A stretch of 64,000 bases of DNA. Origin: Propioniciclava flava (GTDB taxonomy: Bacteria; Actinomycetota; Actinomycetes; Propionibacteriales; Propionibacteriaceae). Numbering within the stretch: the first letter of the stretch is position 1; every line of letters begins with the position of its first letter. The stretch covers positions 186,001-250,000 of the forward strand of contig NZ_PPCV01000003.1 of assembly GCF_004126535.1 (NCBI RefSeq). The letters are read 5' to 3'. The position numbers and the translations under genes are program-made. The notes below the pieces were generated by a model, which did not search any database, was not told the DNA's origin, and saw nothing but the letters and a program-made list of their open reading frames with translations. Below, in pieces: positions 5,646 to 6,889 of the stretch.

Positions 5646-6581
5646 TCAGTCGAGCAGGTCGGCGTACAGCACGCTGGAGAGGTAGCGCTCACCGAAGGAC
5701 GGGATGATCACCACGATGGTCTTGCCCGCGTTCTCCGGCTTCGCGGCCAGTTCACCCGCAGCGGCCAAGGCGGCACCCGAGGAGATCCCCACGAGCAGAC
5801 CCTCTTCGCGCGCCGCGCGACGAGCCCAGTCGATGGCGGTGTCGGAGGCCACGGGGATGACCTCATCGATCACGGAGCGATCCAGGATCTTCGGGATGAA
5901 GTTCGCGCCGATGCCCTGGATCTTGTGCGGGCCAGGCTGGCCACCGGACAGGATGGGGGACTCGGCGGGCTCCACGGCCACGATCTTCACCTCGGGCTTG
6001 CGCTCCTTGAGCACCTGGCCCACACCGGAGATGGTGCCGCCGGTGCCGACGCCTGCCACGACGATGTCAACGCCACCATCGGTGTCGGCCCAGATCTCCT
6101 CCGCGGTCGTCTTGCGGTGAATCTCCACGTTGGCGGGGTTCTCGAACTGGCGCGCCAGGATCGCGCCCGGGGTGGAGGCGGCGATCTCCTCCGCCTTGCT
6201 GACCGCGCCGCGCATGCCCTCCGAACCGGGGGTCAGCACGAGTTCGGCACCGAACGCGCGCAGCAGGGCGCGGCGCTCCTTCGACATGGTCTCCGGCATC
6301 GCCAAGATCACCTTGTAGCCACGGGCCGCACCCACGAACGCGAGCGCGATGCCGGTGTTGCCGGAGGTGCCCTCAACGATCGTGCCGCCCGGCTTCAACT
6401 CGCCGGAGGCCTCCGCCGCGTCCACAATCGCGACACCGATGCGGTCCTTAACCGAGTTGGCCGGGTTGTAGAACTCCAGCTTGGCCACGACGTTGGCCTG
6501 GGAGTCGCCATAGAGGCGGTTGATGCGCACCAGCGGGGTGCGTCCGATGAGGGTGGTGGCGTTGTCGAAAATAGCTGCCAT
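5646..6581 (-). CDS. cysK: Cysteine synthase A (O-acetylserine sulfhydrylase)
   Basis: A PLP-dependent enzyme that makes L-cysteine from O-acetyl-L-serine and sulfide; cytoplasmic, 311 residues, as expected for CysK. The PLP lysine is Lys45 in NPANSVKDR. The substrate-binding loop is EGTSGNTG, the phosphate-binding glycine loop is GVGTGGT, and the GISSGAA motif lies near the C-terminus. The ATG at 6581 (MAAIFDN) is chosen because AAGGA precedes it at about 9 bases; upstream in-frame starts lack support. The serine acetyltransferase that supplies its substrate is encoded at 12537-13379. A cysteine-rich leader peptide and alternative hairpins upstream suggest attenuation by cysteine supply. Confidence 0.97.
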
Positions 6582-6635
6582 GGCGGTGGATTCCTTCTGA
6601 ATGGTGTGGGTTTGGTCGTGCTCGAACACAATCCC

Positions 6636-6736
6636 GACAACACATCCGCGGACGCCCTGTGAGTTCGACGACCGCGGCACGTTCGGGCTGAACGGGCGGT
6701 CAGGCAGGTGTTGTCAGGCCTGGTGGCGACAACACC
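6636..6736 (-). promoter_or_regulatory. Alternative RNA hairpins of a putative cysteine attenuator upstream of cysK
   Basis: Three complementary segments lie in the cysK leader (read on the minus strand). Arm 1 is GGTGTTGTC (6736-6728), overlapping two Cys codons of the leader peptide. Arm 2 is GACAACACC (6715-6707). Arm 3 is GTGTTGTC (6643-6636), a copy of arm 1. Arm 2 can pair with arm 1 or arm 3 but not both, the layout of an attenuator in which ribosome stalling at Cys codons changes the downstream fold. The mechanism is inferred. Confidence 0.5.
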
Positions 6737-6791
6737 GACACATCAGCGGGAAAACGGCGCTCACGGCGTCGGCACCCGATGCGTTGGTCAT
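6714..6791 (-). CDS. Cysteine-rich leader peptide upstream of cysK
   Basis: A 25-codon open frame that ends about 130 bases before cysK on the same strand. Its C-terminal part reads M-C-R-C-C-R-H-Q-A, three Cys codons within four positions, which is rare by chance. The ATG at 6791 is exactly six bases after a TAGTTT box (6803-6798), so translation probably starts at the first transcribed base (leaderless). Polycysteine leaderless leader ORFs that attenuate sulfur genes have been described in mycobacteria; this one sits before a cysteine synthase and its Cys codons lie in one arm of a hairpin. The peptide itself probably has no function; its translation is the sensor. Confidence 0.6.
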   Translation of the reverse strand: MTNASGADAVSAVFPLMCRCCRHQA

Positions 6792-6889
6792 GCCCAGAAA
6801 CTAGCACACCGCCCAAGGACCATGGCGCGGCGTCGGGGGCTGGACTGGCGCGCCCGCACTGCACCAGCACGCGGCGGCGCCAACGCGCA

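Follow-up and report, generated by a model that had tools for sequence, protein, structure and literature searches.

The cysteine synthase gene cysK of Propioniciclava flava is preceded, in the window analysed here (the whole stretch of 64,000 nucleotides), by a short leader ORF with a cluster of Cys codons. Leaders of this kind recur before cysK in relatives, and the RNA arms and stems at and behind the end of the leader are conserved in one congener. The leader is read here as an attenuator that acts on cysK in cis through ribosome stalling at its Cys codons, by either a translational or a transcriptional output, and we assign this reading a probability of roughly 0.8. Translational output taken by itself is given slightly less than even odds.

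Architecture of the cysK leader region

Read 5' to 3' on the minus strand, the hexamer TAGTTT is followed after 6 nt by the leader ATG (6791), the 25-codon frame extends to 6714, and cysK begins with an ATG at 6581. The distance between the leader stop codon and the cysK ATG is 132 nt. As in polycysteine short ORFs, the Cys codons are clustered close to the leader stop, upstream of a sulfur-assimilation gene. The congener used for comparison (genome G001) carries its leader at locus L085. The following features, all on the minus strand, were assigned:

6798–6803, minus strand: −10-like hexamer TAGTTT, read in the sequence, which would put the transcript start at the first base of the leader ATG or close to it
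6714–6791, minus strand: leader ORF of 25 codons, MTNASGADAVSAVFPLMCRCCRHQA followed by the stop; the homologue in the congener (L085) is MTNASGIGAARAAAHVMCRCCRPRA followed by the stop
6729–6740, minus strand: putative sensor codons TGT CGG TGT TGT (Cys-Arg-Cys-Cys), with identical DNA in the congener
6728–6736, minus strand: arm 1, GGTGTTGTC, overlapping Cys codons 2 and 3; predicted probability of pairing with arm 2 (1:2) of 0.85 in the free RNA
6707–6715, minus strand: arm 2, GACAACACC, overlapping bases 2 and 3 of the leader stop codon; kept in the congener
6680–6694, minus strand: hairpin a, stem CGTTC/GAACG, within the 2:3 fold; same stem and one loop change in the congener
6646–6677, minus strand: hairpin b, stem CCGCGG-t-CGTC/GGCG-t-CCGCGG; same stem and altered loop in the congener
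6632–6643, minus strand: arm 3, GTGTTGTC (6643–6636) plus GGGA, rival of arm 1 for arm 2; kept in the congener, where the conserved block stops at GGG
6633–6687, minus strand: alternative long hairpin CCCGAACGTG-CCGCGG ... CCGCGG-ATGTGTTGTCGGG, which also uses arm 3; −29.4 kcal/mol in P. flava and −36.7 kcal/mol in the congener
6591–6598, minus strand: Shine-Dalgarno-like sequence of cysK, AGAAGGAA, read in the sequence
6559–6570, minus strand: candidate arm 4, TTTCGACAACGC, cysK codons 4–8, complementary to arm 3 over 12 bp with G-U pairing
5646–6581, minus strand: cysK, cysteine synthase of 311 aa (PALP domain, 1e-78), the presumed regulated gene

The initial annotation of this DNA had described a 25-codon frame with three Cys codons in four positions, an ATG six bases behind TAGTTT, a 9-bp arm that pairs with a downstream arm, and a second copy of the first arm. 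All four elements were recovered: the frame translates as listed, TAGTTT (6803–6798) is separated from the ATG by 6 nt, the arms form a perfect inverted repeat (6736–6728/6715–6707), and the second copy lies at 6643–6636. The Cys codons had been placed inside the first arm, which applies to codons 2 and 3 (6734–6729), whereas the first (6740–6738) lies just upstream.

A TANNNT motif recurs at a distance of 6–7 nt 5' of the relatives' leaders, which had been selected for TANNNT at 4–9 nt. A scan of 6560–6830 with the sigma-70 consensus did not find a promoter-like site. The stability of the leader-region fold is ordinary (z = −0.87) and thus carries no argument for the leader. None of the NCBIfam models matched the 11 leader peptides searched, so that such leaders may be missed in annotation. 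A riboswitch was set aside because the Rfam search of the window gave no family at gathering score and the Cys codons are explained by the leader ORF. A functional peptide was likewise set aside: the middle of the peptide diverges between P. flava and the congener, while the RNA 3' of its stop codon stays.

Proposed attenuation mechanism and folding of the leader RNA

The probable transcript start is the leader ATG (6791), and translation of the leader probably needs no ribosome-binding site. When Cys-tRNA is ample, the ribosome would read UGU-CGG-UGU-UGU and exit at the stop codon; arms 1 and 2 would pair and arm 3 would be free. The free arm 3 could pair with the first cysK codons (arm 4), which is the option favoured here, closing a loop around the Shine-Dalgarno sequence and the start codon, or alternatively fold into the long hairpin just upstream, and cysK expression would be low either way. 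When Cys-tRNA is scarce, we infer that the ribosome stalls at the Cys codons, where it masks arm 1. Pairing between arms 2 and 3 would then create a junction that includes hairpins a and b, and arm 3, held by arm 2, could not block cysK, so that cysteine synthase would rise upon starvation.

The folding ensembles predicted for P. flava and the match of arm 3 to its cysK start suggest that 1:2 together with 3:4 represents the off state and 2:3 the on state. For P. flava, the free RNA has 1:2 at a probability of 0.85, and nascent RNA with the ribosome over arm 1 has 2:3 at 0.99–1.00. The Shine-Dalgarno to AUG region of cysK is unpaired at 0.35 in the free and 0.60–0.64 in the stalled full-length RNA. 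The proposed off helix 3:4 reaches only 0.07 in the free RNA. When the ribosome on the full-length RNA holds the first Cys codon in its A site, 3:4 (0.93) prevails over 2:3 (0.03), contrary to the model unless folding is kinetic; stalling at the other two Cys codons gives 2:3 at 0.85 and 0.51. The switch would need kinetic folding, in which 2:3 is formed before cysK is transcribed. For the congener, 2:3 amounts to 0.00–0.02 in the full-length RNA and, in the nascent RNA, to 0.68 for one of the three positions of the stalled ribosome and to 0.00–0.04 for the remaining two. The openness of its Shine-Dalgarno to AUG region is unchanged (0.50–0.55), and the long hairpin outcompetes the junction (−36.7 vs −32.3 kcal/mol). 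Of the mutually exclusive hairpins originally claimed, the arms themselves are kept in the congener; the switch is predicted by folding for P. flava only, partially, and not for the congener. The long copy of arm 1 that serves as arm 3 was found only in these two genomes among the leaders tested.

Pairing of arm 3 (GTGTTGTCGGGA) with cysK codons 4–8 of P. flava (TTTCGACAACGC) beats that with 190 of 191 other CysK starts, in a comparison from which seven loci were dropped or in which they were incomplete. The hexamer GACAAC is present in 12/192 CysK starts, and the match between arms 3 and 4 is hence not simply forced by the protein. The corresponding match in the congener does not stand out (15 of the 191 other starts do as well), and it is absent from loci L221 and L197, for which 92 and 176 of the 191 other starts, respectively, are as good. 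The complete four-arm translational attenuator is put forward tentatively and is, on balance, unlikely in this full form: the duplicated copy of the Cys-codon arm would switch between arm 2 and cysK codons 4–8, and Cys leaders of the same family would drive either a translational switch or an intrinsic terminator, with the output changed and the sensor kept.

Premature termination as a possible alternative output

Leader and sensing may be the same and the output premature transcription termination, brought about in the unstalled state by the long hairpin with arm 3 or by Rho acting on the untranslated leader. This alternative is a possibility clearly short of an even chance. The long hairpin is stable in both P. 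flava and the congener, and Rho has been proposed for the cys leaders of Mycobacterium and Propionibacterium acnes (PMC1262725). However, the intrinsic terminator of a classical attenuator is not present: no terminator-like site was found on the minus strand between 6560 and 6830, and the long hairpin (6633–6687) is not followed by a U run.

Three Propionibacteriaceae loci of lower GC (0.52–0.58 over 480 nt), L156, L216, and L217, bear on this alternative. They carry hairpins (41-nt segments of −13.7, −14.3, and −16.5 kcal/mol, respectively) followed by T7, T6, and T6, which were located by inspection and folding within about 20 nt 3' of the leader stop. A ribosome at the first of the four Cys codons of L217 lowers the predicted terminator probability from 0.99 to 0.06, a loss that resembles classical attenuation, but the terminator stays at 0.96–0.99 at the other three Cys positions of L217 and at 0.99–1.00 at every position of L156 and L216. 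The terminator pattern scan yielded one site in L216 (shuffle mean 0.9) and two overlapping sites in L217 (0.6), which is near the shuffle expectation, so that the scan alone is not evidence and the case rests on position and form. Before the 3' arm is made, the 5' arm of the terminator is paired upstream more often with the ribosome at a Cys codon than at the stop codon, which applies to 13 of 14 positions. These terminator-like relatives would permit a direct comparison of two outputs governed by one sensor.

Conservation of arms and stems

At the DNA level, the two congeners agree in the first codons of the leader and differ in its middle. From the Cys codons through arm 3 the agreement is nearly complete, and it is lost again past arm 3 up to the Shine-Dalgarno region of cysK. 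The congener retains the start of the peptide, its MCRCCR end, and arms 1–3. Within the 112-nt block, none of the 56 paired columns and 12 of the 56 unpaired columns differ (p = 2.5e-4), and 3' of the stop codon alone the counts are 0/45 paired vs 9/36 unpaired (p = 3.6e-4), in a partly post hoc test whose paired columns (arms 1–3, hairpins a and b) were drawn from the P. flava fold and which, being based on one species pair, is support and not proof.

In a wider set of cysK leaders that includes this pair, ungapped helices were compared with shuffled sequences. A group of eight terminator-free leaderless leaders, put together after inspection from seven family loci and L033, had summed 1:2 helices above shuffles (p = 0.004), with single-leader values of 0.045–0.28 and 0.96 for L173. 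The summed 2:3 helices of the same group were above shuffles as well (p = 0.001), mainly owing to P. flava and the congener. The counterpart of arm 2 in L150 pairs with its own arm 1 using two G-U pairs, and that in L168 does so with a single G-U pair and with its outer pair exchanged. The 1:2 helices were not above shuffles in the leaders preceded by a Shine-Dalgarno sequence (SD-led; p = 0.59), in the five leaders of the group leaderless_g7 (p = 0.80), or in the three terminator leaders (p = 0.15), so that conservation reaches further for the Cys run than for the arms. For the 2:3 helices, p values in these groups were 0.70, 0.54, and 0.01, respectively. A duplex scan that allowed long bulges, and is noisy for this reason, gave p < 0.05 for 1:2 in 0/35 leaders and for 2:3 in 4/35 (L001, L085, L197, L221), with L068 at 0.050.

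The missing 1:2 signal in these three groups favours an explanation that dispenses with an RNA switch: the Cys codons would do no more than slow ribosomes or affect their traffic towards cysK, and the arms would be incidental. Such an effect is improbable, given the 132 nt between the leader stop and the cysK ATG and the conservation of stems against loops in the congener.

Recurrence of Cys leaders upstream of cysK

Matches to CysK comprised 80 named loci, and all 13 genus genomes had a match at E ≤ 0.001. At E ≤ 1e-90, CysK was found in at least 164 of 198 family genomes and in 12 of the 13 genus genomes (P. flava included), in both cases among the matches listed. The upstream regions of cysK were examined at 199 loci, a subset of all matches, of which 80 were hand-picked from the family list, with none of the genus labelled g4, and the others were obtained directly with the CysK searches. 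After exclusion of the distant paralogues L100 and L109 and merging of identical upstreams, 188 regions remained, 118 from Propionibacteriaceae and 70 from others, a grouping made by hand from locus labels and record titles.

ORFs with three or more Cys within seven codons were detected in 22 of the 118 distinct Propionibacteriaceae upstreams (shuffles 2.4%). Seventeen of the 118 had a leaderless-type ORF, with TANNNT 5–8 nt before the start (shuffles 0.08%), including that of a second, frame-disrupted cysK-like gene of P. flava (L002), and one of the 22 Cys-cluster upstreams was SD-led. Among the 70 non-family upstreams, 18 contained a Cys-cluster ORF (shuffles 1.6%); 15 had SD-led Cys leaders (shuffles 0.07%) and three a leaderless-type ORF (shuffles 0), two of which (L015 and L082) look doubtful. 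A smaller count of 95 loci (L003, L006, L100, and L109 excluded) gave 23 with a Cys cluster and 8 with TANNNT in addition, compared with 2.3% and 0.1% in shuffles and 5 and 0 in the reverse complements. Outside the cysK upstreams of L005–L084 (1,004,582 strand-bases), 83 Cys-cluster ORFs were counted, 1 of them leaderless-type and 10 SD-led, corresponding to rates of 0.033, 0.0004, and 0.004 per 400 nt, respectively. Cys leaders, some of them leaderless-type and some SD-led, are thereby placed upstream of cysK in a portion of the Propionibacteriaceae and also in loci of Cellulomonas, Cellulosimicrobium, Demequina, Oerskovia, Georgenia, and Actinotalea. These relatives strongly support the proposal that cysK has a leader ORF which senses cysteine and is probably leaderless, and the predicted conservation of the leader was borne out by the congener, which keeps the start and the MCRCCR end of the peptide, and by the 17 leaderless-type leaders of the family.

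It is very improbable that the leader is a chance ORF in an ordinary 5' UTR: short ORFs (8–45 codons) in which three or more Cys fall within seven codons are common in the window (10, five per strand, with 5.8 expected in all), but the leader is the only one of these ten with TANNNT 5–8 nt before its start, 20 dinucleotide shuffles produced no such ORF, and promoter-adjacent Cys-cluster ORFs recur upstream of cysK in relatives.

Within the genus, the leader was found in P. flava and the congener G001 only; 10 of the 11 further genus genomes whose CysK match reached E ≤ 1e-90 showed none. At L086–L089, cysK appears by eye to follow another gene, and the gene preceding cysK at L142 encodes a PLP enzyme of Cys/Met metabolism. 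Judging from these few loci, leaders may perhaps be confined to cysK genes at the head of a transcript. A DNA search of the 198 family genomes with the leader gave matches in 42 at E ≤ 0.01, of which only that in G001 covered most of the leader; the others had E values of 5.5e-5 or weaker and extended over about 50 nt or less.

The second Cys leader of P. flava, located before the cysK-like gene L002, has a GTG start, ends in RCCCR before the stop, and carries TACGTT six bases 5'. The cysK-like match at this place (L002/L003, G000:C4:39763-40667) is split over two overlapping frames, which indicates a frameshift or an assembly error. A search for Cys leaders before other P. flava genes, made on the plus strand of four loci from the Cys/Met-metabolism and cysteinyl-tRNA-synthetase-like families, gave a single leaderless-type candidate, L242, which has 57 residues and a form unlike the other Cys leaders. 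Upstream of the serine acetyltransferase-like gene of the window, two candidates without a Shine-Dalgarno sequence were found, neither of them with TANNNT. The PAPS reductase family (PF01507) had no match in the whole P. flava genome and matches in all 14 control genomes; sulfate reduction by the PAPS reductase route may be absent from P. flava, which may rely on CysK together with other sources of sulfur. The SD-led leaders of four Demequina loci (L024, L044, L051, L056) are very Cys-rich, with 7 to 9 Cys per 33–35 codons. Short Cys-containing ORFs (e.g., MKLPFAMCMCMCTTRG...) also precede cysK at L082, L083, and L084, whose records bear Chloroflexi, Anaerolineae, and Longilinea titles.

Comparison with known systems

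Propionibacterium acnes belongs to the same family as P. flava, the Propionibacteriaceae. The kind of element described here is already known: Cys-run leader peptides were reported before the cys operons of Mycobacterium and P. acnes and before cbs of Bifidobacterium longum (Seliverstov et al., 2005, PMC1262725), which corrects the remark in the initial annotation that no description of the element was known for this lineage. According to the accessible text of that report, the leaders have no obvious terminators, Mycobacterium lacks a conserved hairpin able to serve as one, Rho was suggested, and the mode of action was left open; for such leader peptides, the cysK leader provides a concrete, testable candidate for an RNA switch. 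The two sets share Cys runs near the leader stop and the absence of an obvious terminator, with P. acnes among the earlier leaders. They differ in the stems conserved in one congener and in the terminator-like hairpins of three relatives, both features of the cysK leaders.

In mycobacteria, Cys-rich uORFs with ribosome occupancy (PMC4633059), Cys-dependent attenuation in M. smegmatis (described in PMC9031893 and PMC13236596), and polycysteine leaderless short ORFs (Canestrari et al., 2020, as cited in PMC9031893, PMC13236596, PMC9094748, and PMC4633059) have been reported. The cysK leader resembles the latter in that the ORF lies at the expected 5' end of the transcript, the Cys cluster is near its end, and a sulfur gene follows; translational attenuation has been proposed there, too. 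Unlike the mycobacterial ORFs in these descriptions, it precedes cysK in a Propionibacteriaceae genome. Its arms and stems are conserved between two congeners, in a comparison made with the published descriptions of the mycobacterial ORFs, and some of its relatives have terminator-like hairpins while others are SD-led.

The uORFC-8-2 motif before cysS of Rhodobacterales is a terminator-linked Cys attenuator (PMC8632094). It shares with the cysK leader the Cys codons within a stem and the proposed ribosome-mediated attenuation, and it differs by its occurrence in Alphaproteobacteria, its target cysS, and its intrinsic terminator; a competing copy of the first arm is not mentioned in the accessible description (PMC8632094). 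The leader was not assigned to this motif, as its target is cysK, the nearest CysK matches are from Propionibacteriaceae, and the window has no Rfam match at gathering score.

In a classical trp-type transcription attenuator, the sensor codons of a leader peptide act together with arms that exclude each other. The cysK leader has putative sensor codons and candidate arms kept in the congener, and an ensemble switch between the arms is predicted for the nascent RNA of P. flava, not for that of the congener. In contrast to the classical type, a terminator hairpin with a U run is absent from the window. The ilvB1 case of such an attenuator is described in PMC13236596. In the open-licence literature, as far as its text was accessible, we found no description of the cysK leader set or of the conservation of its arms 1, 2, and 3, and none of Propionibacteriaceae Cys leaders with terminator-like hairpins, which are not reported there for any actinobacterial cys leader.

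The 'metL' peptide of Streptomyces lividans, located before metNIQ (PMC8079986), ends in ...GARCMCRRMCAF before the stop and has three Cys near its end; as given there, it is no less similar to a Cys leader than to a Met leader.
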